A stretch of DNA of 50,705 nt from the NCBI GenBank assembly GCA_024400665.1, contig JAKSML010000008.1:1-50705 (forward strand). The letters are read 5' to 3'. Below are positions 2,424-50,705 of the stretch, in pieces; position 1 is the first letter of the stretch, and each line of letters opens with the position of its first letter. The position numbers were made by a program, and so were the translations under genes. A model generated the notes under the pieces. The model saw nothing but the letters and a program-made list of their open reading frames with translations, had not been told where the DNA came from and did not search any database. The DNA is from Bacteroidales bacterium (GTDB taxonomy: Bacteria > Bacteroidota > Bacteroidia > Bacteroidales > P3).

Positions 2424-3185
2424 CTACATATTGACAGTAATGGTGCCAACCTTAGGCGAAACGATGCTAGTGTACTTAACTCCTTTAGACTCTGGAACAA
2501 TGATACCAATTTCTTTACCATTATGTTTTATCAGAATCCGAGTACCACTTTTCCCTGGGAATGCCTTAAGATTCGGGGCTGATGGAGAGAACAAACTAGG
2601 CTTTTCCAATCTATAGTATAGCTTATTAGCATCGCTATAAATATAATAGCCATCTTTCGCAGTGACAATTTTATATTTCTCATCATGAAATAAATTGCTG
2701 GATTGTTCTACATCCAGCTCAGCGCACGATTTGATACCTTTGCGCTTTACCGTCTTAGGTGGCGCGGGCACTGGTGGCACTTTACTTGCCATAACAATAT
2801 CATTATAGACAGACTCCTCAGCCTGCCTGACTCCGGTCTGAAAGAAAGGATTCACTTCGTAATATTCTCCACTTGGACGTTTGAGAGGAACAGGGTATTG
2901 GAATTTCTGATAGCCAACAATCTCTGCACGTAAATTACCCTCAGCTGTCTCTGTCACCGCACCTATTTCCGCCACACCAAAATAATGTGATTCATCCGAC
3001 AGACGATCTTTGATTTCAGGACTGCCTTTTTTCTTTGCTGCACGGTGGTACACAACTTTAGTTCCCTGAGACAGAATCTCTTTTTTATACTTCTGGAAAG
3101 TATATTCCACGCCTGCGACATCATGCCACACAGCGTTCTCACCACCCCCATTATCAGTTATAATTGCATATTTCTTATCATTCAT
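2424..3185 (-). CDS. Third gene of the McrBC-like operon; N-terminal PUA/EVE-like reader domain suspected
   Basis: This 253-aa protein overlaps the 3' end of mcrC by 4 bp (ATGA), which indicates translational coupling. Residues about 20-85 (VWHDVAGVEYTF, then GTKVVYHRA, then SHYFGVAEIG) resemble the N-terminal module of some HNH and other restriction proteins. There an aromatic-rich beta-barrel of PUA/EVE/SRA-like type is thought to bind modified DNA. A proline-rich stretch (PPVPAPP, about residue 138) links it to a C-terminal half that I do not recognise. No nuclease motif is visible. A role as a modified-base specificity subunit or accessory factor is inference from context and weak resemblance. 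Confidence 0.6.
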   Translation of the reverse strand: MNDKKYAIITDNGGGENAVWHDVAGVEYTFQKYKKEILSQGTKVVYHRAAKKKGSPEIKDRLSDESHYFGVAEIGAVTETAEGNLRAEIVGYQKFQYPVPLKRPSGEYYEVNPFFQTGVRQAEESVYNDIVMASKVPPVPAPPKTVKRKGIKSCAELDVEQSSNLFHDEKYKIVTAKDGYYIYSDANKLYYRLEKPSLFSPSAPNLKAFPGKSGTRILIKHNGKEIGIIVPESKGVKYTSIVSPKVGTITVNM

Positions 3186-4588
3186 ATATCTTTAAATATA
3201 TTGTCATATAAACCGTTAATAGCCATTTTTACCTTTTCTTGGATGGAGACCGTTGCAGAGCCTTCTTCTGCAACACCATTGCCCCAAGGTACGCCGATAA
3301 GGTACACATTACTGACACAGGATGAGACTTGTGCAAATATTCTTTGATGTATGCATTTAAATGTACTGCATGGGTATGCCAATATTGCAGTCTTTTCGTT
3401 GTCCCTCTCAAAAGATGAATAAGCGAGTACTTGATGCAGATCGCTCCTAAAAGACTCCTTTAACGCGTCAGCCTTTCCCGCCTTCAGGTTATACATGTGC
3501 ATTTTATATTTTGCATCTGCCACAATCATCTTATCCCCTTTTGTGATGATAATGTCTGGTTCTAAATACGCCAGCCCCCATTCTCTATAGGAGCCAGATA
3601 TTGCGAACCTACTATTTGAAAGCGTGCGGGCGCCTATCATTTTTGCCAATTGAGAAAACACATATTGCACATAGCACTCAAACAACCTGCTAAAGTCCAA
3701 GCTCCATGCACGATATTCACTTGTGACCGACGAGATAACTCTATTCCCTATTATTTTTAATTCCTTGATCTCTTTAGGGTCAGCCGAATGAATTTTCAAT
3801 TCTATCGGCTTTGTTATATCCCTAAAGTCTGTTTTGCGCCTCAAATCTTCAACTTTTGTTCTATAAGCTTGTTTTGATACGCGAGGCGTATCTGGCGAAC
3901 AAAGTTCATCAAGGCATATTTTGAGTACATAATTCAACTCTTGCCATTCTTGATGGTTCACTGAGAGAATATTTTTCTTATTGGGATATTTGAATGTCTC
4001 CCCTGGATCATAGCTCTTCGCCGCATACTTTGCCCATTGTGTGGATGAAGCTGGCTCATGCTCTATTCTGACTTCTGACACGAACTTCCTCCAATGGAGT
4101 CTCTGAGCCTTGATGTACTGATCCAGATACTTAGCACATTCAAAATATAACGGAGGCTTTAGGGTTGATTTGAATGGAAGAACCAACTTGTCTGAGAAAT
4201 TCACATCTATGTCGCCCTCGATCAAAGGAAGGATTTCCGATATGTCCTCATTCATGTTTCCCCTGACGATGATTGAAGCACATACTTTCCCGTTGACAGG
4301 AGAATACAAAGGCGCGCAACCCACCTTCTCTGAAGGTAGGAATATGAGTGCAGGAGTGCCATCCTCGGATAATCGAGCATCTATGGACAGAAATGCAAAA
4401 CTATGCTTGTTGTATAAGAGGAATAAAGCAAGATGTTCTTGTCCATCTCCTGCGCCACCCCAATGAACTGACAATTCATCAAGCACCACCCTTGTGGGTT
4501 TTCTCGTGCACAAGCACAAGTCTCGCGAATCCGCATCACCATGACGGACGAGTCTGCTATATCTGCCCTTTATGGGATTCTTTCTCAT
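3182..4588 (-). CDS. mcrC: McrC-like nuclease subunit of a type IV restriction system
   Basis: This 468-aa protein is the probable nuclease partner of the GTPase encoded upstream. A PD-(D/E)xK active site is visible near the C-terminus: EPDIII at 343-348 and, after a short hairpin, VADAKYK at 356-362. The catalytic residues would be D345, D358 and K360. This arrangement is typical of McrC C-terminal domains. The N-terminal about 300 residues are a divergent DUF2357/McrC-type region that would contact McrB. Its ATG overlaps the mcrB stop (TAATG), and its own stop overlaps the next gene by 4 bp, so the three genes are probably cotranslated. The gene is AT-richer than the chromosomal core, consistent with acquisition. 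Confidence 0.85.
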   Translation of the reverse strand: MRKNPIKGRYSRLVRHGDADSRDLCLCTRKPTRVVLDELSVHWGGAGDGQEHLALFLLYNKHSFAFLSIDARLSEDGTPALIFLPSEKVGCAPLYSPVNGKVCASIIVRGNMNEDISEILPLIEGDIDVNFSDKLVLPFKSTLKPPLYFECAKYLDQYIKAQRLHWRKFVSEVRIEHEPASSTQWAKYAAKSYDPGETFKYPNKKNILSVNHQEWQELNYVLKICLDELCSPDTPRVSKQAYRTKVEDLRRKTDFRDITKPIELKIHSADPKEIKELKIIGNRVISSVTSEYRAWSLDFSRLFECYVQYVFSQLAKMIGARTLSNSRFAISGSYREWGLAYLEPDIIITKGDKMIVADAKYKMHMYNLKAGKADALKESFRSDLHQVLAYSSFERDNEKTAILAYPCSTFKCIHQRIFAQVSSCVSNVYLIGVPWGNGVAEEGSATVSIQEKVKMAINGLYDNIFKDI

Positions 4589-6084
4589 TATTCATACATG
4601 AATTCTCCGGATTCGGACGTGAATAGTTGAGCAAATTCATCTTTTGCAGACAACATAAAACCTTCTGCAAAATACTCTTTCAAAAGTGGCATAAGACCAT
4701 ACATGATGGTCTCCTTTCGTTTGGATTTATCCATAAAATACGACTGACCCGGCTGTAATTTAAGCTCCTCATCTGTTGCATACTTCATAAATAAACCATC
4801 CACCTTGTCGAAAAACTCTCCATCAAAATCACCAGTTGTAAGTTTGTGAGGACGTAAAGTGACCCAAATAAAGCGACGACGCAATGCGAAATCAACCACG
4901 GCAAGACTTTTGTCTGCCGTGTTCATCGTTGCAAGTACATAGAGGTTATCCGGAAGTTTTGCACATGTAATCTTCTCTTCTCCAGATTCCTCATAAATAG
5001 TTCCTAATTCAAGTTCATGCTTACGATCTGTATTGGGCTCAAACAAGTAAAAAACAGGCCCCAGCACATTAGCTAGATTAGCACGGTTTATCTCATCAAT
5101 AATAAGCAGTACTTTTTCGTTCCCCGCCGCTTTTGCTTTATCTATTGCCTTTAAAAGTATTCCCTTTTCTCCTTTATATGCCACCTCTTTCCCATTCAAC
5201 GTAGGCCGGATACCATATACGAAATCTGAATAGGTTGTCTCTGCATGAAACTGCGTAAAAAACACATTTTCTTGCTTGAATTTCCCTGAAACTTCATTAG
5301 CAGTCCATGTTTTTCCACAGCCAGGCGCACCTTGTAAAACCACATACTTATGAGCCATAAGAACATTGTAAACTTCCTCCGGTTCAGGACATTTAACATC
5401 TTCTTTACAAGCAGATACTGATTCTCTTACTGCTTCAGAAGGCTTTTTCTTGTCAGTACCTTTCTGGTATTTTTCCCAACACCTCCACTCTGCATACTGA
5501 GCCAGCCATGCTTTAATAAGACTCCACCCACCATCTTCTGAATAGTCAACAATGAAAGCAGCAGGCAATAAACCAGGGGACTCCTTTCCGTCATCAGCAT
5601 TGTACTTTGTTGCTGTATTTATCATAACACTATCATATTCACCATTTCCCAAAAAGAGTTCTTCTTGCAATCCCGGAGTTGATGTTTCCATTTCGTCGAA
5701 ACGTAGTTTGAAGAAAAATTTCGCCTTTGACTTCCCACTCTTAGTAAGTCTCATAAAGCTTCTCCTGAATCCAGGACTTGCCGCGAGATCCCCATCCTTC
5801 CCCAGACTACCACTACCAATTCCTATGGACACAAGACAATGTGTCCCTTCATGTTCAGGAAATATTACAAATGATAGGCCATCGTACACGCCACTTGTAG
5901 GTTGATCCTCACGTATGAACCCGAACCAGAAATTCGAATCGTTATCTTTTAAATCTCTAACAGCAGTTTTAGATGTATTTCTAATGCAATCACGGAAAAC
6001 ACCATTATCCTTATCTTTAAAGCCAAAAGACCCTGCAATTTTTTCTACTTCTTCAACAAGATTCTTCGGATTATCTATTGCCAT
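4588..6084 (-). CDS. mcrB: McrB-like AAA+ GTPase of a type IV restriction system
   Basis: This 498-aa protein is the motor subunit that would recognise modified DNA and activate the McrC nuclease. The AAA+ core occupies roughly residues 235-480. It has Walker A GAPGCGKT (252-259), Walker B LLIIDEINRA (326-335), the McrB signature MNTADKS (387-393) and the arginine-rich LRRRF that follows. The N-terminal 1-200 resembles the MrcB_N/DUF3578 DNA-recognition domain (GLSFVIFPEHEGTHCLVSIGIG). GTP rather than ATP use is known for McrB and assumed here. It lies 131 bp downstream of an XRE regulator on the same strand and is coupled to mcrC. Confidence 0.88.
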   Translation of the reverse strand: MAIDNPKNLVEEVEKIAGSFGFKDKDNGVFRDCIRNTSKTAVRDLKDNDSNFWFGFIREDQPTSGVYDGLSFVIFPEHEGTHCLVSIGIGSGSLGKDGDLAASPGFRRSFMRLTKSGKSKAKFFFKLRFDEMETSTPGLQEELFLGNGEYDSVMINTATKYNADDGKESPGLLPAAFIVDYSEDGGWSLIKAWLAQYAEWRCWEKYQKGTDKKKPSEAVRESVSACKEDVKCPEPEEVYNVLMAHKYVVLQGAPGCGKTWTANEVSGKFKQENVFFTQFHAETTYSDFVYGIRPTLNGKEVAYKGEKGILLKAIDKAKAAGNEKVLLIIDEINRANLANVLGPVFYLFEPNTDRKHELELGTIYEESGEEKITCAKLPDNLYVLATMNTADKSLAVVDFALRRRFIWVTLRPHKLTTGDFDGEFFDKVDGLFMKYATDEELKLQPGQSYFMDKSKRKETIMYGLMPLLKEYFAEGFMLSAKDEFAQLFTSESGEFMYE

Positions 6085-6215
6085 TTTACATTTATTTTAA
6101 ATCATTACATTTTCTGTTATTTTTTTCACTCCAATCCCAATGGTAATCACCGCCAACGTTTTGTATGCATGACGTACTATCCACGCTCAATCATACTAAT
6201 TTTCATTATTCTGAT

Positions 6216-6506
6216 CTATTGTTCGTATTCGATTATCTTCTTTATCAGCAGGTCTATTTCGTCCTCTGCATTCTGCTCTTCTTCGGAAAACATTATCGAC
6301 TGTAGCGAGACTTTGAAATGTTCGCAGACGTCGTAAAGCTGCTTCAAGGTATATTTCTGAGAGTACTTTGTACTCTCGATATTCCCGATCTGACCTTTCG
6401 AGAGACTAAGTATGTTCCCTAATGCGGACTGCGAGACATTGTGTTCGAGTCTTATTTTTCGGACGTTTTGAATGACTCTATATTGATACTCAGTTTTCTC
6501 TATCAT
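6216..6506 (-). CDS. XRE-family helix-turn-helix regulator
   Basis: This 96-aa protein has a Cro/cI-type HTH at about residues 14-68 (KIRLEHNVSQSALGNIL, SKGQIGNIES, YTLKQLYDVCEHF) and an acidic C-terminal tail. It is encoded immediately upstream of mcrB on the same strand. A controller-protein role, delaying or limiting restriction gene expression, is plausible by analogy with C proteins. It is inferred from position only. A Bacteroidetes -7 box lies 24 bases before its ATG. Confidence 0.85.
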   Translation of the reverse strand: MIEKTEYQYRVIQNVRKIRLEHNVSQSALGNILSLSKGQIGNIESTKYSQKYTLKQLYDVCEHFKVSLQSIMFSEEEQNAEDEIDLLIKKIIEYEQ

Positions 6507-6529
6507 TTTTATGTATATATATAATTTTG

Positions 6530-6537
6530 CAAAGATA
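6530..6537 (-). promoter_or_regulatory. -7 element upstream of the XRE gene
   Basis: On the minus strand this reads TATCTTTG, a perfect TAnnTTTG, 24 bases before the start codon of the regulator. I do not see a good -33 TTTG at the expected distance, so it may be a weak or regulated promoter. Confidence 0.6.
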
Positions 6538-7098
6538 CATAGGTATTTGCCCTTATTTTGTGAGAATGTCGGAAATTAACTTTATATTTTACATACGCGA
6601 TTGTTTATCGGACTAGGGATATAACGAATTACGAAATGGAGCGAGTGGGGTGACAGGCATTGAATGTTCAACGGATTTTGAGAGGTTTAATAGCCGCAGG
6701 AGGCACAACATGGCGTGGGCCGATACGATAGGGCAAAAGCGACAATGTCAGACCCATTGCTTTTGTGGCATGGTGCGGCTATCTCACCTGTCTTAATGTA
6801 TGTCCTACAAATTCGAGAGCAGGCAGCCCCTCCTTGCTGAGCAAGCCCAGCATTGGACGGAAAAACTCATAGATGAACCATTAATCCAATATGTCAAAGT
6901 ACTCACGGCTGTTTCAAGTCCTGCCGTGCCGACTGGCCTGTATGCTGTGCCGAGCCTCCCTGTGCCGCCTTTCTGGCGCGATGCCGTCCCGCTCTGACGA
7001 GCGAAGCTGTGGCGAGCTTGGCAAATAGATGTGTGTGATGATCTGCTTTTGCAAAATGCTTTTTCGTGTAGCTGTCTCCCCTTGTCGGAAACACTTTG

Positions 7099-15115: not shown

Positions 15116-18100
15116 TTAGAAGTTAAATCTGATAGTTATGCCACCCTTGGTGGTAGAGTTGGGGTAGGAGTTCATGATATAGGGGTTGTTGATGTTGGTT
15201 TGGAAGAAGGCGCGGAGGGTGAGGGTGCTGGAAAGAGCATACTCGCCCGAGAGCTCGACCATCCAGACCTCGCTGCCCGAGGAAACCTGACTGACATTCT
15301 GCTGGTTTATTTTGCGGATGTTGGTCTTGTTGTCGTTGTAGGTAAGGTTGAGCTGCAGCACGACATCGCTCTTGAGGTGCTTGATCTCGTCGCCGACCTG
15401 AATATCGAAAGCCACATCTTTGAAGCGGTAGCCGCCGCCGAAGGTGATGCCGTCGCGAGTGGTCTCGGTGAGCTGGTTGTTGGAGAAGCTCATGGCCAGG
15501 GTGCGGTTCTTCTGCATGGAGAAGTTGATTTGGACGCTGTTGGTCATGCTCACAGAGAGGCGGATGAGGGGGTTGAACTGCTCGTTGATCTGCACAGCCT
15601 CCATGCTGATGGGGGCGATGAAGTCGTTGGAGCCGTTGAGCACCGTCTCCATGCCGTAGTCGTAGCCGTCGCGGCCCGAGATGGCAGCATCGGTGTAGTA
15701 GTTGCCTATGGAGTAGGTGGAGGAGTACTTGTGCGAGATGGAGATGTTGTTAAACCACTTCTTCAGCGCCTTGATCTTGTTGAGGCCGTTGTATGATATG
15801 GACCAGTTGGGCATGGGCAATCCCAAAAAGGGAGTGAAGGCATAGTTGCCTACATCCTTGCCCATATAGGTGGCCAAGAAGCTGGTGAGGAGGACGGTCT
15901 GCTGATTGGCGCCATAGCCGAAGGGGTAGAACTCGCCGTTCATCGTGTCGCGGATGAGCTCGTCGCAGCGACTGTCGGGGTTCATCGATGCCAGACGGTT
16001 TGCCACAGTGTGGCGGTTTTTGAGGAAGTCATTGTAGAGGTCGTCGAGCGACTTGAACGAGGTAGCGAGGCTCCAGCAGGTGGTGCTGTAGGTACCCGAC
16101 ATGACGTAGGAGAGCGGCCCCTCTACTCTATCCCACTCGCTGAGATACTTGTAGTAATATTCCTCGCGGTTTTGATAGGTCTGGTTGGCCGAGAGCTCAA
16201 TCTTGAAGTCGCGTATCGGCTCGACAGAAGCCTGTAGCGAGAGCATACGGTTGAGGGTATTCTCGTGGGCACGGTTCATGAGGGTGTCGGTCGAAAGGAG
16301 GTTGTTGTCGCGCAGCCGTTCCACAAGGCCGTCGTTATAGCCCATCACGAAGGCGGGTCCGGGCATCCAGTCGCGGCGGGCATCCATGCCCAGAAGGGTC
16401 ACGGTGCCCATATAGCCGGGGAGGATAGAACCCGTAGAGTTGCTGTATTGGACGCCGAACGACTTGAGACAGGTGACGAAGCGGATGCCCCAGTTTGCCA
16501 CAGCGTGCAGCATCTCCATGGCTTCGGCACGGCGCACGGAATCGGGGTTCTTGGCGCGTGCTATAGAGTCCTGCGTGGCCTGGTCGCGTTCCTTCTTGGT
16601 CATGCGCTTCGGGTCTTTGGGTGGCTGGTTGCTGGGCAGTTTGTAGGCGTTCTTGATGAATGGGAACTTATTATAGAGCGTCTGCATCTGTCCCGTCACG
16701 GAGGCCTGCAGCTGTCCAGAGCTGTTGAGCGTGCTGCCTTGTGCAGCAAGAGCCTGCGTGGTGCCCATGTAGTTATATACGGTGCGATAGGTTATCGGCA
16801 TACGGAGGAAATCCATATAGGGCAGCTTGGTGATGGGCACATCCCATGTGAGGTTGACAGTCTGCTGGAAGTTCTGCATGGTGCCGCCATGGGCGATAGA
16901 CTTCCAGATGCTGTCGCGGCATTCGCGCGTATCGACACGGCCGACGGGCTCGTCAATGCGGGTGTTGGCCGAGGCGTTGTATTGCAGATGAATGCTGCGG
17001 GCAAAGTCCCACTGCAAGCCGTAGTCGCGCTTCCATGTGAACTGTTTGAAGTATGTAGGCTTCATGATGACCAGCGCGGTGCCCTTGTTGCGGAGCATGG
17101 TCTCTTCGTAGTCGCGGTATATCTCGGTGTTGAAGGAGAAGTTCTTGGGCTTGTAGCAGAAGTTGAAGTCCTTGATGAACTTGGCGTTCTTGCTGTTGAT
17201 GAATTTCGACTTCGACTTGGAGAAGGGCGTCACCTGACCCTGTTCCTGCGGGGTGAAGGAGTAGGTGAGGGTTCCGTGGTGCTGGTCTTTGTTATAGTAC
17301 GATATCTCGTCATCCGACGAGCGTTCACGGCTGTAAGCGTATGAGAGCGAGAGATTCTCGATGTCGTAGAAATGCTGTTTGAGGGCGTTCTTGCCCGTGC
17401 GGTCCTTGCGGACATTGGTGAGGGTGAGGTTGGTGGTGGTCTTGCGTTCCTGTGCCATGGCGCGGACACTGTCGCGCTCGGCCTGGGTCTGGTAGGTCAG
17501 CAGGTCGTCTTTGAGGCGCACGTCGGGGTCCATAGGGTTGTATTCGGGACTTCCCACCTGCTTGTTCCAATCCAGGTAGAAGGGAATGTGGATGCCCCAC
17601 TCTTCGGGGAGGAACTTTCCTAATTCGAGGTCCATGGTGGTCTGAGCCTGCAGGGTGTTGACGAGTTCGAGCGAGGTGGGTTTCTCTTCGAGGTTGCCAA
17701 AGCCTGCCGTGCGGTAGGAGCCATAGAGCGAGAGGTTGCCGAGGTCGGCAAGGTTGGAGCGTGCCAACGCTGTGGCTGCCCAGCCGCCACGGTTGTTGAA
17801 GTCGGTGAGGCGGAGCTCGTTGAGCCACACGATGCACGACTTGGGCAGCATATTGTTGCCATCGTCCATGCGTTCTTTCTTGGGGTTGCGCACACCCACC
17901 ATGATGACCTTCACCTTGCCGAGGTTGGGCGACCCAAGGACGGTGTATTTATGGCCGTCAACAAATTCGCTATAGAGGAGCTGGCTGTTGTAGGAGAGGT
18001 CGCCGCCACGGATGAGCCTGTTGCGATTGGTCTTGATATCGACCAGTTTGGTGAGATCGACCACCACGTTATTGTCCTGCGGCCAGATGACGTAGGGGTC

Positions 18101-21100
18101 GTCCTTGCCCACACCCCATTCGGTGAATTTCAACGGCACCTCATATTCATAATAATTATTGGTGTAGTCGCTGCCGAGGCGGACAAAGAGCACAAGGTCG
18201 TCATCGTCCATGTCGTCCAGCTCGGACTTTTTCTCAGCATGGACAAACATCTTCAGCTTGCCGTAGTTGCGGAGGTCGTACTGGCTGTTGCGATAGACGG
18301 CGCGGGCGTCGCCCGAGGCGAGGTCGGTAATGTCGAGCGACAGGGCCTGCTCATTGAGCAAGGTATAGGCAGAAGAGGTGCTGTACCACTGCTCTCGGTC
18401 AATCTCGGGAGGCAGCACGTATGGCACAGGATAGCGGCTGCCGTTCTCCTCGATGCTGACGGTGCTGATGCTGAAAGAGGTGTTGGCGCCGGTGCCCGTG
18501 GTGTAGTCGCCTGGCTGGAGCAACTCTTCGGTGTATTTGCGCCAGGTGGAATAGACAAGGTCGAGGGTGGCGAAACGGAGGATGATGGGCTCCTCGAAAT
18601 CGTTGAGGAACATACGCATGAAGCGTATGGACTGAAAGCCGTTGAGCTTGCCAATCTGCTGGTCGTACTCGCGGATGGGGATGCGGAACTGGTACCACTT
18701 GCACGATGTGGTGCTGCCGTCGGCCAGCAGCACATTCTCTGCCTCCTGGATATCGACGATGTGGTTCTCGCCAATCACCATCTTGGCGGGGTCTATTTCG
18801 AGCACATACTGATAGTAGTTCTCTGCCTCGCTGAGGGTGTTGTCTTTGTTGATGTCCTCCACATTCGGATAGGTGGAGGCTGCTGTGGAGTAGCCTTCTC
18901 TATTATCGGCATCGACGGCCGAGTTGCCCTCGGGGTTGTTGTAGTATTTGTAGCGGTCGTTAATCTTCACATCCTGGTCGTCGTAGTCCGAGCCGCGGTA
19001 GTAGTGGAAATCGTCGGCCGAGGGGTCTTGCAGTGCCAGCTGGTAGGCCACGGAGTTTTCGCCAAAGCGTTCGCGAATTTGGTTGATGTAGTCGCTGAAG
19101 AAGCTCTGCTCGTCGGTCATGCCGTGCGTGGAGCTGAGGCCGTCATAGCCCACATCCTGGTAGCGACGTGCCGAATCGTTGTTGTCGAAAGCGTTGACGA
19201 TGGGCTGCGTGTTCGGCACACGGCCCCAGATGGTGGTATCGACGCCCGTCACCTCGCTGCTGGTGGGGAGGCCGTTCTCGAAGCTCTTGCGACCGTCGCG
19301 GAGGATATCCTCGCTGATGTCGCCGAGGTTGATGTAGAGCTTGCCGCCCGTGTGGTTCGGATTCTCGATGAAGGGGTCCATGAGCCAGAATTCGAGGGTC
19401 TCGATATTCTGCGTCTCGAAATCGGTGTAGTCCAGTTTGCGCATGATGCCAGCCCAACGGCTGCGGGGGTCAGCCAGACGACCCTCCTCGGTGAGGCCGG
19501 CGCTGAAGGGCGAGGGCGCCACGTCATAGTTATAGGGACCGCGCTCGTCGGGATAGTAGGCCAGGTTGAGCTCGTAGATCATCGTCGGCTCGCCCTGCAC
19601 AAGGCTCTTGTTGGGGAAGACCTCGTTCTCGTAGATGCGGCGGGCGTAGGGACGAGAACGGTCCTCGTCGGTGATGTTGTCGGGACTCTGCGAGGAGTAG
19701 AACATATTATCGATACGGTACCATGCCAGCTTGGCGCGGTTGAAGCCATAGGCGAGGCCTGTGCCGGGCTGCGTCTCAGGAAACTTAGGCAGCGAGAGGC
19801 TGAAGTCCTGCGGCGTACTGGCCAGATGCCAGTAGGTGATGCCTTTCAGGTCGATGCTGCTCTCTGCGCCTTCAAAGTCGTCAACGTAGGTGACGCTGCC
19901 CTCTTTGGTGCCTGTGTAGGCAAGACCGGGGACGAACTGCGCAAACTCGGCCGAGACGCTGAGGTTGGAGGGTGCTTTCGTGTCGATGCCGGGGAGCTTG
20001 TCGATAAGCTTGGTGATGAAGGGCGCTTCGTGATGGTAGTTCAGGTCGAGGCCCCAGATGCTGTTGCTCGTCGGCTCTTCGCCGAAGTTGTTCTTCTGCG
20101 TGAGGGGCTTCTCATAGAGGTTCATGAAGGTGCCACCCACGTTGAAGTCGGGCTGTATCTCATAGTTGATATGGGTGCCGAGCATACGCTTGGTCATCAT
20201 GCTGAAGGAGTTGTTCTCGCTGCTCACGCTGATGGGCGTGCCGCTCGAAAGGAGGCTCTCGTTGATGATGCGCACCGTTCCCATGGTGTAATCGACGGTG
20301 TAATCGACATTCTCTATCAGCGGCATGCCGCCTGCCGTCACAGTGACGGAGCCCTGCGAGACGCTGTAGCCCAGCGAGATCTCGCCGCTCACGGTGCTGG
20401 AGTAGTAGCCTTCGATGTAGAACTTGTTCTTGTCGGCATACTGCTGCGCCAAGGTGCGCGTCATGGTGTAGAGCGAGTCAAAGCAGTACTCTTTGGCATA
20501 TTCGTCGTCGTTCAGTATCTCGCGCAGGTCTTTGCCGAAAGGCTCGACGTAGGGGAAGAAGATGCGGCCTGTCGAGGCCTGGATGATGCCGCCTTTGAAG
20601 GCTGCGCTGTCGAACCAGTCAAACACACCATCGGCGTAATAGTAGTTCTGCGAGGCATCCATGCGGTCGAGACCGAAGAGCTCGATGAGTGGGATGCCCT
20701 CCTTGGGGCCGTCGGTGAAATAGCCTATGCCCACACCGCCTTCGCGACTCTCATAGAGGACGTTGAGGCGGAAGTTCTCGCGGCCTATCTGCGTGCTGCG
20801 GAGGAAATAGACGTTCTTCATCATCAGCTTCCACAGCGGGCTGCGGGTGTCCGTGCCCGTTCCTTTGATGAGCTTGACGACCAAGGTGTTGGGGTCGTTC
20901 ACGCCGTCTGTGGTAAGCTCGCCGACCTGATAGACCGTCGTGTCGCCGATGACTTGATACTGATATGCCACAGCCAGAACCTGATCGGCGCTGAGGGGCT
21001 GGCTGAGGGTGATGAAGCCGAGCTGCTCGTTGAAGGTGTATTCGCTGCTGGGCAGCAGACGCGCGCTCTCGACTTTCTCATAGTCTGTGCCGCCCACGAA

Positions 21101-22246
21101 GCCGAGGCCCTGCATGTAGGAGGTGACGTTGTCGATGCTGCGGACAGCCGAGGTGTTGAGCAGCGAGAGGAGGTTGTTGCTGCTGTTGGTGGGCTTGGTG
21201 GAGATGCCGCCCGATATCAGGTTGTTGCTGGGGTTGCTCTCTCCGAGGTCGGTAAGGGCCAAGATGTTACGGTTGTTGGTCACAGCGGCGCCCACATTGG
21301 TGCGCCACACCTCCAATCGGATGATGCGTATGTTGGTGTTGGGCGTGGGCAGGGTTGCCATGGCCTTGTTGTAGTTGTCGTAGAAATACTGCGAGAGGAA
21401 GTAGTGGCGGTTCTCCTCATATTCGTCGGCGCGGATCTGGAACTCCTGCGTAGAGGCGCCGCCCTGTATCTGCATGTTCTCGGTGCTGGTCTTCTTTTCC
21501 GAGACGACGGCATCGACCGTCAGTTTGCCGAACTTCAGCTTGGTGTGGAAGCCGAAGAGCTCTTGGCTGCCATGGATGAGCGTGGTGGTGAGCGGGAAGG
21601 AGATGTCGCCGGCTTCGAAGAGCTGTAGGATGTCGTCTTCCTTGCCTTCATATTTCAGCTTGAGCTTGTTCTCAAAGTCAAAGGTGGCCATGGTGTTCCA
21701 GTTGATGTCGAAGTCGAAGAGGTCGCCAATCTTGGCGTTGAGGCTCACCTGTATGTTCTCGTCAAAGTCAAAGTTGGTGACGCTTCGCTTATTGACATCG
21801 AGGTTCTTATCGTCGCGGTAGTTGTTGACAATCTGGAAGGTAAGGTCGGCACTACCCGTGGGATTGATGCTGATGTCGGGTATGGTGAGGAGGCCGTCAA
21901 CCTTCTTGCTGATCTCGCTGAATCCGGGAATCTTGCTGAGGAGGCCGTCGTCCGAGGCGGTGTCGTTCTGCGCCGAGCGTTCGTCCCAGTACTGCTTCAT
22001 CAGCTGGGTCATCTGATAGTCCTGGTACTCCTCGAAGGTCATATACTGGCGGTCAATAACCATGTCGCCCATCTTGGTGAGCTTGATGTAGGAGCCGCTC
22101 TCGGCATCGTAGATCACCGAGTCTGTGGGCATATTAGGCGTCTGCGCCCACAGCGGCGTGGCGAAGGCCGAGAAGATGAGCAGCATCAGCCACGCTATGA
22201 GGCGCGGCCGGCGGGAAGTTCTATAGTAGTTTGTGCGTTCCATCAC
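15116..22246 (-). CDS. sprA: T9SS outer-membrane translocon SprA (Sov)
   Basis: At 2376 aa this is the normal size for SprA, the very large outer-membrane beta-barrel through which type IX secretion cargo leaves the periplasm. The signal peptide runs to about residue 35 (FATPLWAQ). Conserved family segments include VDDFEGAESSIDLKGITYW in the middle. The C-terminal quarter is rich in amphipathic strands and ends GGITIRFNF. Adjacency to ruvA recurs in Bacteroidetes. A probable client with a type A sorting tail is at 24984-25868. The other T9SS subunits (PorK-N, SprE, SprT) are not in this window. Confidence 0.96.
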   Translation of the reverse strand: MMERTNYYRTSRRPRLIAWLMLLIFSAFATPLWAQTPNMPTDSVIYDAESGSYIKLTKMGDMVIDRQYMTFEEYQDYQMTQLMKQYWDERSAQNDTASDDGLLSKIPGFSEISKKVDGLLTIPDISINPTGSADLTFQIVNNYRDDKNLDVNKRSVTNFDFDENIQVSLNAKIGDLFDFDINWNTMATFDFENKLKLKYEGKEDDILQLFEAGDISFPLTTTLIHGSQELFGFHTKLKFGKLTVDAVVSEKKTSTENMQIQGGASTQEFQIRADEYEENRHYFLSQYFYDNYNKAMATLPTPNTNIRIIRLEVWRTNVGAAVTNNRNILALTDLGESNPSNNLISGGISTKPTNSSNNLLSLLNTSAVRSIDNVTSYMQGLGFVGGTDYEKVESARLLPSSEYTFNEQLGFITLSQPLSADQVLAVAYQYQVIGDTTVYQVGELTTDGVNDPNTLVVKLIKGTGTDTRSPLWKLMMKNVYFLRSTQIGRENFRLNVLYESREGGVGIGYFTDGPKEGIPLIELFGLDRMDASQNYYYADGVFDWFDSAAFKGGIIQASTGRIFFPYVEPFGKDLREILNDDEYAKEYCFDSLYTMTRTLAQQYADKNKFYIEGYYSSTVSGEISLGYSVSQGSVTVTAGGMPLIENVDYTVDYTMGTVRIINESLLSSGTPISVSSENNSFSMMTKRMLGTHINYEIQPDFNVGGTFMNLYEKPLTQKNNFGEEPTSNSIWGLDLNYHHEAPFITKLIDKLPGIDTKAPSNLSVSAEFAQFVPGLAYTGTKEGSVTYVDDFEGAESSIDLKGITYWHLASTPQDFSLSLPKFPETQPGTGLAYGFNRAKLAWYRIDNMFYSSQSPDNITDEDRSRPYARRIYENEVFPNKSLVQGEPTMIYELNLAYYPDERGPYNYDVAPSPFSAGLTEEGRLADPRSRWAGIMRKLDYTDFETQNIETLEFWLMDPFIENPNHTGGKLYINLGDISEDILRDGRKSFENGLPTSSEVTGVDTTIWGRVPNTQPIVNAFDNNDSARRYQDVGYDGLSSTHGMTDEQSFFSDYINQIRERFGENSVAYQLALQDPSADDFHYYRGSDYDDQDVKINDRYKYYNNPEGNSAVDADNREGYSTAASTYPNVEDINKDNTLSEAENYYQYVLEIDPAKMVIGENHIVDIQEAENVLLADGSTTSCKWYQFRIPIREYDQQIGKLNGFQSIRFMRMFLNDFEEPIILRFATLDLVYSTWRKYTEELLQPGDYTTGTGANTSFSISTVSIEENGSRYPVPYVLPPEIDREQWYSTSSAYTLLNEQALSLDITDLASGDARAVYRNSQYDLRNYGKLKMFVHAEKKSELDDMDDDDLVLFVRLGSDYTNNYYEYEVPLKFTEWGVGKDDPYVIWPQDNNVVVDLTKLVDIKTNRNRLIRGGDLSYNSQLLYSEFVDGHKYTVLGSPNLGKVKVIMVGVRNPKKERMDDGNNMLPKSCIVWLNELRLTDFNNRGGWAATALARSNLADLGNLSLYGSYRTAGFGNLEEKPTSLELVNTLQAQTTMDLELGKFLPEEWGIHIPFYLDWNKQVGSPEYNPMDPDVRLKDDLLTYQTQAERDSVRAMAQERKTTTNLTLTNVRKDRTGKNALKQHFYDIENLSLSYAYSRERSSDDEISYYNKDQHHGTLTYSFTPQEQGQVTPFSKSKSKFINSKNAKFIKDFNFCYKPKNFSFNTEIYRDYEETMLRNKGTALVIMKPTYFKQFTWKRDYGLQWDFARSIHLQYNASANTRIDEPVGRVDTRECRDSIWKSIAHGGTMQNFQQTVNLTWDVPITKLPYMDFLRMPITYRTVYNYMGTTQALAAQGSTLNSSGQLQASVTGQMQTLYNKFPFIKNAYKLPSNQPPKDPKRMTKKERDQATQDSIARAKNPDSVRRAEAMEMLHAVANWGIRFVTCLKSFGVQYSNSTGSILPGYMGTVTLLGMDARRDWMPGPAFVMGYNDGLVERLRDNNLLSTDTLMNRAHENTLNRMLSLQASVEPIRDFKIELSANQTYQNREEYYYKYLSEWDRVEGPLSYVMSGTYSTTCWSLATSFKSLDDLYNDFLKNRHTVANRLASMNPDSRCDELIRDTMNGEFYPFGYGANQQTVLLTSFLATYMGKDVGNYAFTPFLGLPMPNWSISYNGLNKIKALKKWFNNISISHKYSSTYSIGNYYTDAAISGRDGYDYGMETVLNGSNDFIAPISMEAVQINEQFNPLIRLSVSMTNSVQINFSMQKNRTLAMSFSNNQLTETTRDGITFGGGYRFKDVAFDIQVGDEIKHLKSDVVLQLNLTYNDNKTNIRKINQQNVSQVSSGSEVWMVELSGEYALSSTLTLRAFFQTNINNPYIMNSYPNSTTKGGITIRFNF

Positions 22247-45341: not shown

Positions 45342-46365
45342 ACCCGTTGGCGGAATTAATCTAGAGCATATTTGATATGACCAAGGGGTTTGCCTGAGAG
45401 ATAATTGACATATTGTAATGTGGTGAAAGAAGCAATCTTACAGATAACTCTGACGAACAGCCCTGTAGGTTGCTTGGCATAGTTCCGATTCAGCATAAAC
45501 TGCCCCACAAACTGAGAGAAGTCGGTTTCGATACGCTTTCTGGCCTTTGCAAAAGGAATAAAAGTCGGTTTCCAATCCTTTTGATTCAATCTGTAAGGAA
45601 CTTCCAGACGAATGTTGGCTGATTCGAAAAGATCCAGCTGCATAGATGCGCTAATATAGCCACGATCACCGAAGATGCTACAGTCGTGATATTCATATTT
45701 GACATCCTTCAAGTAATTAATATCGTGCACGTTTGCCTTGGTGATATCAAATGAATGAATGACACCGCTGAGGCCGCACACGGCATGCAGTTTATAACCA
45801 TAGTAATACGTGTTCTGTGATGCACAGAAACCGAAGGAAGGTGCAGTCTCGTAGTCGGACTTGCCAAGCTTGCATCTTGAGGACCTGGCGATACGGCACA
45901 CCTCTATGGGCTTTGAGTCGATACAAAAGAATGACTCTCCGCCATCGATTTCGTTGGCGATGCGTTCACGGATGGCCTTACAAACCGAGATGGTCAGTTT
46001 GCGCCTTGTGTTGAACTGCCTTCTGCTTATTAGGTTAGGAATCAAATCTCTATGATGATTCAGCCAAACGAATAAACAGTTCTCGCTGTCAATACTGAGA
46101 GATTCGGCTGTTAGCGACAATGCGATAACTTCAAGATCCGAAAACTTGGGCACGACACCTCTTCTGGGCACATTTCCGAGTTCGTTGACGAAATTTTTCG
46201 AGAAACGCTTGCATATGTCAAGAATTTTTGCGTACTTTGCATAAAAGTTGTGCATATCGATAGTCTTTTGTAATAAATTGATTTTCACTACAAAATACGA
46301 AAAATTATTGACATACACAACTTTTTTTGAAAGAAATAATTAACAAATTAATTCATCCAACAGGT
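45342..46365. mobile_element. IS982-family insertion sequence
   Basis: The element is 1024 bp, a normal size for IS982. Its ends are imperfect inverted repeats: ACCCGTTGGCGGAATTAAT at the left, and the complement of the right end reads ACCTGTTGGATGAATTAAT, matching at 16 of the first 19 positions. One transposase gene reads leftward and fills it. I see no clear target duplication (CAAATCAAA versus AAAAATACT). The right end lies 15 bp before the Macro-TIR start codon. Confidence 0.85.
45356..46255 (-). CDS. IS982-family transposase
   Basis: This 299-aa protein, starting at MHNFYAKYAKIL, is a DDE transposase. Family segments are SRRQFNTRRKLT, the first-Asp region FFCIDSKPIEVCR, YYYGYKLHAVCGLSG, the GDRGYIS segment with the second Asp, and LNQKDWKPTFIPFAKARKRIETDFSQ with the final Glu. 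The frame is complete, so the element may still be active. An in-frame ATG 63 bases upstream is possible but lies in the end region. Confidence 0.9.
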   Translation of the reverse strand: MHNFYAKYAKILDICKRFSKNFVNELGNVPRRGVVPKFSDLEVIALSLTAESLSIDSENCLFVWLNHHRDLIPNLISRRQFNTRRKLTISVCKAIRERIANEIDGGESFFCIDSKPIEVCRIARSSRCKLGKSDYETAPSFGFCASQNTYYYGYKLHAVCGLSGVIHSFDITKANVHDINYLKDVKYEYHDCSIFGDRGYISASMQLDLFESANIRLEVPYRLNQKDWKPTFIPFAKARKRIETDFSQFVGQFMLNRNYAKQPTGLFVRVICKIASFTTLQYVNYLSGKPLGHIKYALD

Positions 46366-46380
46366 AAAAATACTGAAACA

Positions 46381-47469
46381 ATGGAACAACGAACATATAC
46401 ATTTAACCAATCAACCCTTACCGTAAAGTTTGGCGACATTCTGGATTCGCAGGCAGAGGTCATTGTGAGTAGCGATGACTGCTATGTGACTATGGGCGGT
46501 GGTCATGCAGGTGTTTCTGGTGCAATTTATCAAGCAGGCGGCGAAGGCATCATGAGGGATGCTCAGAAGATGGTTCCTGTGCCGTTGGGCGATGTGATAG
46601 CGACAACAGCGGGGACCTTGGTACATCAGAAATATGTGTTCCATTGCATCACAATAGACAAAAAACGCAGAATGCAGATGATGACCAGTCAGGTGACCGA
46701 GGAAGACGTGTTGAACTATCTTCTTCAGCATGCCGTTGACAAGTGTTTCCAACTGATGCAGGCGATGGAACTGACTTCCATCGCATTTCCTGCCATAGGA
46801 GCCGGTGCAGCGCGCATTCCTATTCAAAAGGTAATAGAGCAGATGTCAATCGCCATAGCTCGAAACCTTGCCAATACGAACAGGTCGTTGAATGTGGAAT
46901 TCTACCTATATGATATCTATAACATCTATTCTGAATCCGATTACATCACTCTGTTTGAGAACCTTGCAGCAAAAGCTGCTTTGGTGGAATATCAGCAAGG
47001 GCTTGCCACAACCGACAACGATATCGTGCTTCCTGTACAGAGCGGAACCCGGCTTCCCGACAGAAATAGTATGACTCATAAGGTCTTCATCAGTTACTCT
47101 CGCAAGGATCAGGACACAGCGGACTATCTTTGCAACATTCTTAAAGAGAATGGTATCGAATACTGGATTGACAAAGAGGGTATCTATAGCAGTTCCAACT
47201 ACAAAGAATTCATAGTAGATGCGATAGACGTTTCAAAGGCTGTCATCTTCATCAGTTCCGAAAATTCCAATGCCTCCTCCAATGTTATCCGAGAAATCGG
47301 TTATGCAGTCAATATGTGCAAGCCTGTCCTCCCTTTAATGCTTGATGATGCGCCATACGCCAAAAGCATCCGTTTGGACATATCAGATATTGACCAAATA
47401 GATTTCAAGAATCCCATAGAACTGAATAAGAAGTTGATAACCAGTTTAATGTATGTATTGAATAAGTAA
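46381..47469 (+). CDS. Macro domain-TIR domain fusion protein
   Basis: This 362-aa protein has an N-terminal Macro-type domain, residues about 10-195 (KFGDILDSQAEVIVSSDD, then GGGHAGVSGAIYQAGGEG, then AFPAIGAGAARIPIQ). This fold binds ADP-ribose-type ligands. The usual NAAN motif is SSDD here. The C-terminal TIR domain is at about 232-325 (HKVFISYSRKDQDTADYL, YWIDKEGIY, ASSNVIREIGYAV). E305 aligns with the NADase glutamate, although the usual Trp four residues before it is Asn. The start is the ATG just inside the gene, since the open frame upstream enters the IS end. It is 9 bp upstream of the next gene. Confidence 0.88.
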   Translation: MEQRTYTFNQSTLTVKFGDILDSQAEVIVSSDDCYVTMGGGHAGVSGAIYQAGGEGIMRDAQKMVPVPLGDVIATTAGTLVHQKYVFHCITIDKKRRMQMMTSQVTEEDVLNYLLQHAVDKCFQLMQAMELTSIAFPAIGAGAARIPIQKVIEQMSIAIARNLANTNRSLNVEFYLYDIYNIYSESDYITLFENLAAKAALVEYQQGLATTDNDIVLPVQSGTRLPDRNSMTHKVFISYSRKDQDTADYLCNILKENGIEYWIDKEGIYSSSNYKEFIVDAIDVSKAVIFISSENSNASSNVIREIGYAVNMCKPVLPLMLDDAPYAKSIRLDISDIDQIDFKNPIELNKKLITSLMYVLNK

Positions 47470-47478
47470 TTTGAAGCA

Positions 47479-50238
47479 ATGGACACGTTGTTTAATATCA
47501 TTGAACAAGCCTTACGTGCACATCTACCTTTTGTAGAAGTTGATACATCAGCTACAGATGATGACGTGTACATGGCAATCCGTCAAGTGATGCGTGACAA
47601 TCCGGACATCTTCTGGTTCTCGCATCAGTGGAGCCATTTGCAATCTGAGGCTATTGTGCGTTTTCGTTATACAATAGACAATGAGCGGAGCGAGAAGATA
47701 AGGAAACAGATTGAAGATGTTGTACAGAATGACTTTAAATTGGATTATGTACGTACACTTTCTGTATGGAAGCAGGTGATATATGTGTATAAGTGGATTG
47801 CACTCTATTGCAACTACGACATACATTCTGCACACAATCAGACAATCTTTAGCGTGTTCGTTCTTCGCCACTCAGTTTGCACAGGTATTGCCAAAGCCGC
47901 ACAATACCTGTTTGAATTATTGGGTATTGAAAGCCGTCTGGTATTTGGCAAACTAAAAAACAGCGATGAGGATAGCAGACATTGTTGGCTGATAGTTAAA
48001 ATCGAAGAAAAATGGTATCATCTTGACCCCACGTTTGCTTTGCCGGAATCAGAGCATCTGCTTCATCAATTTGGCGAGAGACCTATGCGGGGTGAAGATT
48101 TCTTGTTCTATAACTTTTTCTGTGTAGATACGGCTTCAATCAAACATTCCCGAACAATTGAGAAAGAGGACTTGTTGCCTATTTGCAATGACAAGATTGA
48201 ATATGCTGATTTGCTGAATATCAACATTACCCCATCCCGCAACGGGGAACAATCGGGTCTTGGTTGCATACTTTCCGATGTCGGGACAACAGCTGTCATA
48301 TATCTTTCGCATAACGCAAACAAACATTATCGCCATCGTTCTGTGGCTAAAGTGTTCAAGGATGATTCTGATCATGAACTTCTGCGCAAGGAATTGATTG
48401 TGATGCGGGAATGTGCTGGTCTTCATCTTCTACGTGCTACAGATGCTGACTTTGACAAGGGTATTCTGTACATGGAACAAGCTACCCCTTTGTCGGAATT
48501 ACTTGCCAGCCATTACTATAAACTGACTCTCAAACATTTCTGCAATCTATTAATCGACATTGCATCCGGATTAAAGGAATTACTTGATCATGGTATCTTA
48601 TATCGCGACATTCACCTCAACAATATCTATTTGTCGGAGGATTCGATTATGGGAAATCCGATATACAAACTCGGCGACTTCGGCAGTTGTACATCTGTAG
48701 ATAAGGCTGGTAAATCTGCTGACCTTACAGAGCGAGGCGGTGTCGGAAGCAAATGGTATATGGCCCCAGAGACATGGAATAAAGGTATATTTGATGAGCG
48801 TTCTGCGGTGTATGGGGTTGGAATGATTGCTTACTACCTGCTAAATGATTTGTATCCACCATTCTGGCAAGATTATGGAGAACAATCGCTTGATTTGCGT
48901 ATGCAATTCCACCGATTGCCTGTTCCAACCACACTATGGAAAGAAAAATGCAGACATCTACGAATGGACTTTCTATTCAAATCCATGAGAATCAACGCTG
49001 AAGGAAGATATCAGACACTAGCTGAACTGATTGATGCAATTAAAGAGTGTGCCAACTGCAATTATCCCAATCTAGTTCTCATAAATGGTACAGAATTTAA
49101 AAATGTTGCGAAGAATGCTCAAAATGAAACATTTTGCTCTACTTGTGTCGGTAATCCATCAATAATTGTTTCGAATGGAGAAATTGAAGAAACGGCTGTT
49201 GATTCAGATGTTGAGTGTTGGCTCGAAGATATGTTAAGCGATGACAATGATGATGGACAGATTGCCTATTTTGATTCTGAATCTCAGATAAACGACTTTG
49301 CAACAACATGTTGTGGTGTTGTTAGTGCGCCTTCATCATCGAATGAAAATAGTTATATCCTTGAGATTAACTCAATGATTTTTTACGGAATTTGTCCACC
49401 GCATTTTTCTATATGGCACCGTCTTTTCAGGAAACGGAATATACCTCAATTCGTCTATAGTTCCGTCTTTGCTCCCGCAGAGATTGCCCCCAAGCAACAC
49501 TTGATGGTACAAGTATATCTGCATCTTCCAGAAGAAACAGTGACGGTAAAGTCTCTTGCATCAGAGGCTGATAAAAATGCCGAACGCAAGGGGTATGAGC
49601 CGCTTGAGGTGCCACTTAAGAAAGGCGACAATGTTGAAATTGAACTAAATGTCAATGGCGATAATCTGTTATACAATTGTCGCAAGTCGGTAGTATGGCA
49701 GGGATCTTTCGTGAAACGGGCATTTGACTTTGTTGTGCCAGCGGACATAAACGTGCATGAATTGAGCAGTTCTGTCAATATTTTTGTAAATGGCGCCATT
49801 GCTGGGGAATTGTTATTCCTTACCGCTATCGCTGATTCACCACGACAATTGAACACCAATGTTTGCGCAAGACCAACAAAAAAGCTCTTCATATCCTACT
49901 CCCACAAAGATATTGTATCTGCAGAGAAGATTGCAAAAATCCACGAGGCATTGGGTATCGACGTGTTCTTTGACAAGCATCGCCTGAAAGCAGGATATAT
50001 CTATTCCGAAGAAATATCCAAGTTCATTCAAAATGCGGATACATTTGTCCTCTGCTGGTCAGAGAATGCAGCAAAAAGTGACTATGTGGAAAAGGAACGT
50101 CAGGAAGCTCTTGCTTTGGCGTATCCGCAAAGCAAGCCAAGAGATCAGGCCCGATTGAGAATTCACCCATACAACATTGAACCTCATGCCGTGCCTCCAG
50201 CTGACATGATTGAACATTATCATTTCGAAGAATTGTAA
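47479..50238 (+). CDS. Transglutaminase-like/protein kinase/TIR fusion protein
   Basis: This 919-aa protein has, in order, four regions. First, a transglutaminase-like domain (about 85-215) with a triad C134 (HSVCTG), H168 (RHCW) and D183 (HLDPTF). Second, a Hanks-type kinase (about 255-525): K291 in VAKVF, E305, the catalytic loop YRDIHLNN (D377, N382), DFG at 400-402 and MAPE at 428-431. The usual catalytic-loop Lys is His379. Third, a low-complexity acidic linker and a beta-rich domain (about 655-785). Fourth, a TIR domain (about 800-885; FISYSHKD, FFDKHRLKAG, SDYVEKE with E873 at the NADase position). No membrane segment is seen. I know no described system with this order. Confidence 0.88.
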   Translation: MDTLFNIIEQALRAHLPFVEVDTSATDDDVYMAIRQVMRDNPDIFWFSHQWSHLQSEAIVRFRYTIDNERSEKIRKQIEDVVQNDFKLDYVRTLSVWKQVIYVYKWIALYCNYDIHSAHNQTIFSVFVLRHSVCTGIAKAAQYLFELLGIESRLVFGKLKNSDEDSRHCWLIVKIEEKWYHLDPTFALPESEHLLHQFGERPMRGEDFLFYNFFCVDTASIKHSRTIEKEDLLPICNDKIEYADLLNINITPSRNGEQSGLGCILSDVGTTAVIYLSHNANKHYRHRSVAKVFKDDSDHELLRKELIVMRECAGLHLLRATDADFDKGILYMEQATPLSELLASHYYKLTLKHFCNLLIDIASGLKELLDHGILYRDIHLNNIYLSEDSIMGNPIYKLGDFGSCTSVDKAGKSADLTERGGVGSKWYMAPETWNKGIFDERSAVYGVGMIAYYLLNDLYPPFWQDYGEQSLDLRMQFHRLPVPTTLWKEKCRHLRMDFLFKSMRINAEGRYQTLAELIDAIKECANCNYPNLVLINGTEFKNVAKNAQNETFCSTCVGNPSIIVSNGEIEETAVDSDVECWLEDMLSDDNDDGQIAYFDSESQINDFATTCCGVVSAPSSSNENSYILEINSMIFYGICPPHFSIWHRLFRKRNIPQFVYSSVFAPAEIAPKQHLMVQVYLHLPEETVTVKSLASEADKNAERKGYEPLEVPLKKGDNVEIELNVNGDNLLYNCRKSVVWQGSFVKRAFDFVVPADINVHELSSSVNIFVNGAIAGELLFLTAIADSPRQLNTNVCARPTKKLFISYSHKDIVSAEKIAKIHEALGIDVFFDKHRLKAGYIYSEEISKFIQNADTFVLCWSENAAKSDYVEKERQEALALAYPQSKPRDQARLRIHPYNIEPHAVPPADMIEHYHFEEL

Positions 50239-50251
50239 AAAGATTTGCACA

Positions 50252-50545
50252 ATGGAACCAAGATACGACATATTCATAAGCTACCGACGCAAGGGCGGTT
50301 ATGAAACGGCTAAGCATTTATATGATTTATTGACAAGGGATGGATATAACGTCAGTCTTGATATTGATACGTTGCGAAGTGGTGATTTTGACGTTTCATT
50401 ATTATCAAGAGTCGAAGAATGCCAAGACTTTATATTGATTGTAGATGAACATGCTTTTGACAAATGTATCGATCCGGCTTTTGAACGAAAAAAAGATTGG
50501 CTACGTTGTGAATTGGCACATGCTTTAGTACATCAAAAAATGTAA
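50252..50545 (+). CDS. Small TIR-domain protein, frame broken near its C-terminus
   Basis: This 97-aa frame begins MEPRYDIFISYRRKGG and covers most of a TIR fold: box 1 (YDIFISY), LDIDTLRSGDF, FILIVDEHAFD and WLRCELAHAL. W83 and E87 match the WxxxE arrangement of TIR NADases. It stops right after an A6 run (HQKM, stop), while the rest of the TIR domain continues in the -1 frame to 50670. It lies 13 bp after the triple-domain gene. Confidence 0.8.
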   Translation: MEPRYDIFISYRRKGGYETAKHLYDLLTRDGYNVSLDIDTLRSGDFDVSLLSRVEECQDFILIVDEHAFDKCIDPAFERKKDWLRCELAHALVHQKM

Positions 50546-50670
50546 TTCCCATAATGCTTGCTGGAGTTTCTGGTTTTCCTGAGAATCTTCCGGAAGACAT
50601 TGAATCTGTTGTAAAGAAAAACGGTCCTCCTCACAGTATGGAATATTTTGAGGGGAGTTCTATAAATTAA
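50546..50670 (+). pseudogene. Out-of-frame continuation of the small TIR gene
   Basis: Joining the frames at the A6 run (about 50535-50540) by one extra A, or by a -1 slip, gives NVIPIMLAGVSGFPENLPED and ends MEYFEGSSIN. NVIPIML is the usual late beta-strand of bacterial TIR domains. The frame ends at 50668-50670. It is a fresh mutation, a slippage switch or a sequencing error. Confidence 0.75.
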
Positions 50671-50705
50671 AATAATGTTAATCATTTTGTTATGTCGGAA
50701 AATTT

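Follow-up and report, generated by a model that had tools for sequence, protein, structure and literature searches.

A three-gene TIR cluster in a Bacteroidales genome and its recurrent transglutaminase-like/kinase/TIR protein: a candidate NAD-based conflict island

The window analyzed here, a stretch of 50,705 nucleotides, is the entire contig C45 (G000:C45) of a 1.54-Mb Bacteroidales assembly that is 64.7% complete. Towards its end (46381-50670) lie three consecutive genes on the forward strand, separated by gaps of 9 and 13 bp. As the original prediction held, each encodes a TIR domain (Pfam TIR_2, 74.3, 57.2 and 34.2 bits for genes 1, 2 and 3 against a cut-off of 28) with a candidate catalytic glutamate (E305, E873 and E87, respectively), and one of them also carries a Macro domain; given that the Pfam matches counted for the three genes all lie above curated cut-offs, the domains named in them are not due to chance. 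The block is flanked, again as predicted, by an IS, whose transposase ORF (DDE_Tnp_1, 320 aa, 45356-46318, reverse strand; Pfam E 1.9e-21) we treat as a boundary element outside the system. An inverted repeat matching at 12 of 14 positions, near 45347 and 46360, flanks this ORF, and the edge of the element probably lies about 20 bp before gene 1; the genome has one full copy of this IS and one 132-bp piece at 84%. The proposal that the block is AT-richer than the core holds with respect to the region at 8-24 kb (GC 0.40-0.42 at 46-50 kb versus 0.53-0.64), but window 3001-7000 is about equally AT-rich (GC 0.40-0.43). An ATG at 50692 (window 50692-50705) could open a fourth gene where the contig stops at 50705. 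Elsewhere in the window, one open reading frame of 2376 aa occupies 15116-22246 on the reverse strand.

Gene 1 (46381-47469, forward strand; 362 aa) encodes a Macro-TIR protein, with the Macro domain at about aa 14-185 (extent from PDB matches; Pfam Macro 1.5e-15, above the curated cut-off) and the TIR domain at aa 233-344 (TIR_2 1.5e-20). The latter also passes the cut-off of the ThsB_TIR family (PF08937; 24.7 versus 21.2 bits), for which gene 2 scores below it (16.8 bits) and gene 3 is unlisted; TIR_2 outscores PF08937 in genes 1 and 2. In the PDB, the TIR of gene 1 gives a weak match to the TIR-APAZ protein of SPARTA (0.0034). Macro domains that act as ADP-ribosyl hydrolases carry a NAAN-type motif, which is absent from the gene 1 Macro domain and from three fused homologues. 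Because gene 1 has SSDD (aa 30-33) where the hydrolases have NAAN, with SSDD, SSDG and NSDD in the homologues (n=3), the sequence suggests that this domain would more likely bind a ligand than hydrolyze one.

Gene 2 (47479-50238, forward strand; 919 aa) combines, by Pfam matches and comparison with 13 relatives, a transglutaminase-like domain, a protein kinase domain, a region that we term domain X and a TIR domain (hereafter TG-K-X-TIR). The transglutaminase-like domain (47479-48198; Transglut_core 3.6e-10), which would be a thiol protease or a transglutaminase, aligns to PDB 9crn (E 7.7e-9), and its triad, C134, H168 and D183, is invariant in all 14 rows of an alignment of gene 2 with its relatives. 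The kinase domain (48262-49068; Pkinase 2.9e-19, PknB 2e-10) likewise has K291, E305, D377, N382 and D400 invariant in 14 of 14 rows, with the VAIK lysine, the HRD aspartate, the asparagine and the DFG aspartate all present. Its catalytic loop reads DIHxxN: the HRD histidine is replaced by tyrosine in 13 of the 14 rows, and H379 is invariant at the position where Ser/Thr kinases usually have a lysine. In the TIR domain (49876-50235; TIR_2 3e-15, with a PDB match to SARM1 at 0.04), E873 is kept in all 12 complete rows, those of two relatives (L011 and L016) ending before it. The catalytic residues are thus retained across relatives of 35-60% identity, and the intact triad and kinase motifs fit the putative protein-modification activities that had been predicted as an addition to the TIR system.

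Domain X (49447-49863), about 140 aa directly before the TIR and delineated from 13 of the 14 rows (all but L017), matches nothing in the PDB up to E 10 and has only chance-level matches in Pfam. A cyanobacterial TIR protein encoded on an Allocoleopsis plasmid (L045 5287-6819), near two caspase-family genes, shares the X-TIR part at 31%. The poorly alignable linker between the kinase and domain X contains a motif, INDFATT in gene 2 (49288-49308; hydrophobic-x-x-F-A-x-T), whose general form hydrophobic-x-x-[FY]-[ASC]-x-T occurs in 11 of the 14 linkers in 15 copies, against a mean of 0.04 in shuffled linkers, a rough control given that the pattern was drawn up after viewing the rows and that these are akin. 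A near-identical pattern is found in 10 of 13 TG-K-X-TIR proteins and none of the 202 other ORFs among 215 ORFs from 14 loci. Our guess is that the motif could be a kinase or docking site.

Gene 3 (50252-50545, forward strand; TIR_2 4e-8) encodes a short SARM1-like TIR of 97 aa that ends after the glutamate helix. The cluster had been predicted to extend to 50670, and TIR-coding letters do reach this position; however, the frame of gene 3 stops at 50545, and the remainder of the domain is read in another frame (50536-50670, forward strand) beyond a break at about 50540. Its nearest structures in the PDB are TIR-1 (E 2.8e-13) and SARM1 (about 2e-11), and E87 is aligned to the W..kE-stretch glutamate of these NADases. 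TIR NADases have their catalytic glutamate in a characteristic helix, and a glutamate is present in the expected helix of all three TIRs, that of gene 3 being the only one aligned with a good score to a proven NADase. Judged by these residues, the three TIRs probably destroy or convert NAD. A homologue of gene 3 with a likewise broken frame is found at one TG-K-X-TIR locus (L020; 64% identical), and further homologues lie farther from TG-K-X-TIR at three others (L014, 75%; L016; L021).

The relatives of gene 2 number 13 distinct loci (L011-L022 and L024; L025, L008 and L007 are the same places as L013, L016 and L017, each counted once). Twelve are from Bacteroidales, among them Lentimicrobiaceae and a member of the window's own genus (L024), and one is from an Oscillospiraceae MAG (L020), on a 10.5-kb contig for which a binning error is possible. 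TG-K-X-TIR was found in 2 of 392 other genomes of an order-level sample, 2 of 189 of a family sample and 0 of 394 of a phylum sample. A pattern scan of the GTDB genome collection, which is not exhaustive in that it missed L024, gave 13 loci, 12 of them with the whole architecture (the TIR being broken in L011 and L016); at L023, from the same scan, the transglutaminase-like domain occurs alone on a different protein. The patchy distribution, taken with the single Oscillospiraceae MAG, points to TG-K-X-TIR being a putative mobile gene. An origin from phages or plasmids was considered and set aside: matches in 11 plasmid and 5 phage records never reached 80% of the query, and scans of viral contigs gave no relative.

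Phylogenetic trees of the two halves of the protein conflict. In the TG-kinase tree the window protein groups with those of L011 and L012 (99/98), whereas the X-TIR tree rejects both this group (p-AU 0.017) and the pairing of the window with L011 (p-AU 9e-5); the groups tested were picked after seeing the identities, the window sits on a long branch of the X-TIR tree, in which the L011 and L016 rows are cut. Between the window and L011, identity is 70% in the transglutaminase-like domain, 76% in the kinase and 32% in domain X. The X-TIR half of TG-K-X-TIR proteins has, on this reading of the trees, moved between different N-terminal halves.

We used the Macro part of gene 1 (aa 1-200; tblastn, E up to 1e-3) to search the stretches around the relatives and found a match in 0 of 13; some of these stretches are short (5.2 kb for L011), and L013, with 549 bp upstream only, is not judgeable for Macro. 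Fused, full-length Macro-TIR homologues occur in two genomes of the order sample (G310, 53%; G313, 46%) and one of the family sample (G455, 39%), the remaining matches to gene 1 covering only the TIR; none of the three has a match to the transglutaminase-like domain, kinase or X in the stretches examined around it. In G310 and G313 (L033 and L034) the gene sits alone amid housekeeping-looking genes. The G313 copy has a stop between Macro and TIR, and this genome additionally has a TG-K-X-TIR gene on a separate contig. In G455, which belongs to the window's genus, Macro-TIR is part of an island (L037 6834-16215) with an MscS-like protein, a second TIR (SIR2-like by a weak PADLOC match), an nSTAND1-TPR protein and a 733-aa RCK-like protein of the same family as in the TG-K-X-TIR islands (2e-66), possibly representing a second kind of NAD island. 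Searches with Macro-TIR gave no match among viral contigs and one plasmid record, in the TIR part only.

The co-occurrence of the three genes in other genomes, proposed at the outset as the test of the system, is therefore not seen in the stretches searched (0 of 13 TG-K-X-TIR loci have a Macro match, L013 being too short upstream to judge, and none of the 3 Macro-TIR loci matches the transglutaminase-like domain, kinase or X). On these stretches we reject a conserved three-gene system: the recurrent unit is the TG-K-X-TIR protein, not the three-gene set, and the position of Macro-TIR beside it may be accidental. On balance we lean towards regarding the cluster as a version of a mobile TIR conflict island of Bacteroidales, of which TG-K-X-TIR would be the constant part and Macro-TIR and the short TIR exchangeable partners.

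The same results make it improbable that the cluster is a true three-gene, Thoeris-like operon, in which TG-K-X-TIR and the third TIR would act as sensors and makers of a nucleotide signal, and the Macro domain would read it and activate its own TIR as an NADase effector. Such an operon would agree with the common strand and the short gaps, and with the concentration here of three of the genome's four TIR_2 matches (the fourth lies on contig C31); it sits poorly with Macro-TIR genes that stand alone or in another island, with relatives whose searched stretches give no Macro match, and with the broken frame of the third TIR. The ligands of ThsA Macro domains bear on it in both directions, given that the available text of PMC11204291 reports binding of ADPR and IAD and none of 2'/3'cADPR.

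Broken TIR frames recur beyond gene 3 and its L020 homologue, in the TG-K-X-TIR proteins of L011 and L016 and the Macro-TIR of L034. The breaks in L011 (3070-3129) and L016 (12629-12700) fall on the same TIR codon and differ in kind, with a stop at one locus and a frame break at the other; the catalytic glutamate is lost from the frame in both. The frequency of such lesions would fit a costly, toxic domain, with assembly error as another possible source. They also raise the prospect, which we consider doubtful, that the cluster is a decaying remnant whose front was removed by the IS and whose third TIR is broken, leaving TG-K-X-TIR, and perhaps Macro-TIR, still active. The probable IS edge just before gene 1 is in line with this; on the other hand, neither gene 1 nor gene 2 is truncated, both retain their key residues, and the frame break of gene 3 could be an assembly error.

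The surroundings of the relatives inform the preferred reading, that of a mobile conflict island around TG-K-X-TIR. A TIR profile detects further TIR ORFs in 9 of the 13 stretches (L011, L012, L014, L016, L017, L019, L020, L021 and L024); 10 of its 12 seeds come from seven of these nine loci and hence match by construction, and Pfam agrees on a TIR in all nine, L016 and L021 being just under the cut-off. In five loci (L011, L014, L017, L019 and L020) the next downstream gene encodes a TIR, at a distance of 275 bp in L017 and at most about 35 bp in the others. RyR domains occur beside six relatives (L014, L016, L017, L019, L021 and L024), with seven domains in about 250 kb; the expectation is about 0.03, based on the 49 matches that 189 genomes of the family contain, a rough figure that takes 2.4 Mb per genome while the loci span several families. 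Six of these domains seeded their own profile; Pfam was run on those of L016, L017 and L024, and blastp links the other three. An RCK/TrkA-like family, with membrane segments as judged by eye only, recurs near L014, L016, L021 and L024; of the members scanned, that of L021 alone clears the RCK cut-off of Pfam. Other neighbors include TIR-FGE proteins (L016, L017 and L021), PrsW-like proteins (L017 by Pfam, L014 and L016 by blastp), CHAT-TPR proteins (L016 and L021), an nSTAND1 protein and a TIR protein with sub-threshold WD40-like matches (L019) and a trypsin-like protein (L024). A family of about 500-584 aa with no Pfam match, common to L016 (12881-14635) and L021 (8433-9938), adjoins TG-K-X-TIR on either side.

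The window itself has no RyR gene. The fourth TIR_2 match of the genome, on contig C31 (14,356 bases), is a gene that adjoins genes for a 740-aa RCK-like protein and a 113-aa protein with an RyR match of 1.7e-36, the group lying at a contig end (L044 8690-13964). The former matches the RCK-like protein of L021 (5e-40), and its own TrkA_N and RyR matches are below cut-off. Comparison of the ends of C31 and C45 revealed no sequence overlap.

Several results weigh against the conflict-island reading, among them the often broken TIR frames, the lack of an RyR gene in the window and NCBIfam system models that all stay below their cut-offs. In addition, the TIR profile finds no further TIR ORF in the stretches of L013, L015, L018 and L022 (4 of 13), and the four neighbors scanned at L018 are metabolic or cell-wall genes; accordingly, the partners are either dispensable or the protein has another function there. 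The least probable of the readings weighed is ordinary signaling outside defense, with TIR and X as scaffolds and the kinase and protease regulating, for example, envelope stress or ion balance, for which the L018 context and the RCK-like and PrsW neighbors would speak, and against which stand the patchy spread, the swapped halves, the conserved TIR glutamate and the TIR-rich neighborhoods.

A further clue to the conflict island lies in the RyR neighbors. The nucleotide 2'/3'cADPR is a product of some TIR domains. Among phage homologues with RyR domains, six of the eight tested bound it and one cleaves it, as given in the accessible text of PMC13232231. Taking this together with the closeness of the gene 3 TIR to TIR-1 and SARM1, we favor an NAD-based conflict island with a TIR core controlled by a protease and a kinase. 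The originally proposed NAD-based conflict system is thus sustained as a candidate by the residue expected of NADases in all three TIRs and by the neighbors of the relatives (further TIR, nSTAND1, CHAT, trypsin-like and RyR genes), which are of the kind seen in predicted bacterial conflict islands, but not as a conserved set of three genes. In such an island, the protease-like domain and the kinase might sense or relay a threat, be it a phage product or stress, and act through cleavage or phosphorylation, either of a target or of their own protein, perhaps at the threonine motif of the linker, and the X-TIR end would thereby be freed to assemble. The assembled TIRs could then consume NAD+ and release ADP-ribose-type products, with TIR proteins encoded nearby adding to the consumption. 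The product might be bound by readers of nucleotides, such as Macro in this cluster and RyR-domain proteins in the sister loci, which would tune or execute the response, and the infected cell would in the end stop growing or die.

We also raise, as a more speculative and on the whole unlikely extension, a bacterial pathway from cADPR to RyR, wherein the protease and kinase of TG-K-X-TIR would activate the TIR on the same chain to make a cADPR isomer, and the adjacent RCK-like and RyR proteins would be receptors gating ions in infected cells. If true, prokaryotes would have their own equivalent of the action of NAD-derived cADPR on ryanodine receptors. The RyR-domain gene neighborhood thus offers a bacterial setting in which to ask whether hosts, too, use RyR domains, as receptors for cADPR made by TIRs, and not just phages as countermeasures. 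In turn, TG-K-X-TIR, with a predicted kinase, a predicted NAD-acting TIR and a predicted thiol protease or transglutaminase on one chain, would allow one to ask how a bacterial TIR enzyme is switched by proteolysis and phosphorylation.

TIR conflict systems as such are already known. In the limited literature searched, we found neither the TG-K-X-TIR chain and its linker motif nor the exchange of halves nor the RyR-TIR neighborhoods of bacteria described. The comparison with defense-system profiles that the original prediction called for identified no known system: all NCBIfam matches are below their cut-offs, and the PADLOC matches, which come without a cut-off, are confined to individual TIR or kinase domains. 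The transglutaminase-like/kinase fusion, which the original prediction placed in no familiar defense operon, recurs in 13 relatives with its catalytic residues kept. Thoeris (ThsA/ThsB, including the TM-Macro version of ThsA) shares with the cluster TIRs that convert, or here would convert, NAD+ to nucleotide signals, a Macro domain as a reader (here a putative one) and the ThsB_TIR match of gene 1; it differs in that the Macro domain is here fused to a TIR and a kinase/protease fusion is added. Furthermore, the three proteins show no SIR2 or SLOG match, PF20016 (ThsA_Macro) reaches 16.2 of 25 bits, and the NCBIfam equivalog for ThcB4 of Thoeris type III scores 26.6, 23.1 and 38.2 bits versus 220. 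The kinase of gene 2 resembles MAD6 of MADS (PADLOC mad6 5.7e-28), but the match is by the kinase part of a longer protein and NF047741 reaches 35.4 of 460 bits; it also matches the PD-T4-6 kinase (6.3e-19, profile positions 20-274 of 292, by PADLOC without a cut-off), again through the kinase domain alone. The NAD hydrolases SARM1 and TIR-1 carry ARM and SAM domains. Among solved structures they are closest to the TIR of gene 3, with the glutamate aligned, whereas gene 3, at 97 aa and with its frame broken, has room only for a TIR. RyDEP of phages, an RyR-domain glycosidase or sponge for cADPR in the accessible text of PMC13232231, has a PF02026-type domain like those beside 6 of the 13 relatives and on C31; in contrast, the RyR genes found here lie in bacterial TIR islands, not in phages, and none is within the window. 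A similar composition is seen in the TIR/FGS/nSTAND1/kinase conflict systems that Aravind and colleagues have predicted (PMC8195603, PMC7159879): the available text of these papers does not contain the single TG-kinase-X-TIR chain or RyR neighbors (the string 'ryr' occurs 0 times in either main text), and the systems described there have in common with the islands discussed above TIR, S/T kinase, transglutaminase-like peptidase, trypsin, FGS and nSTAND1 domains.
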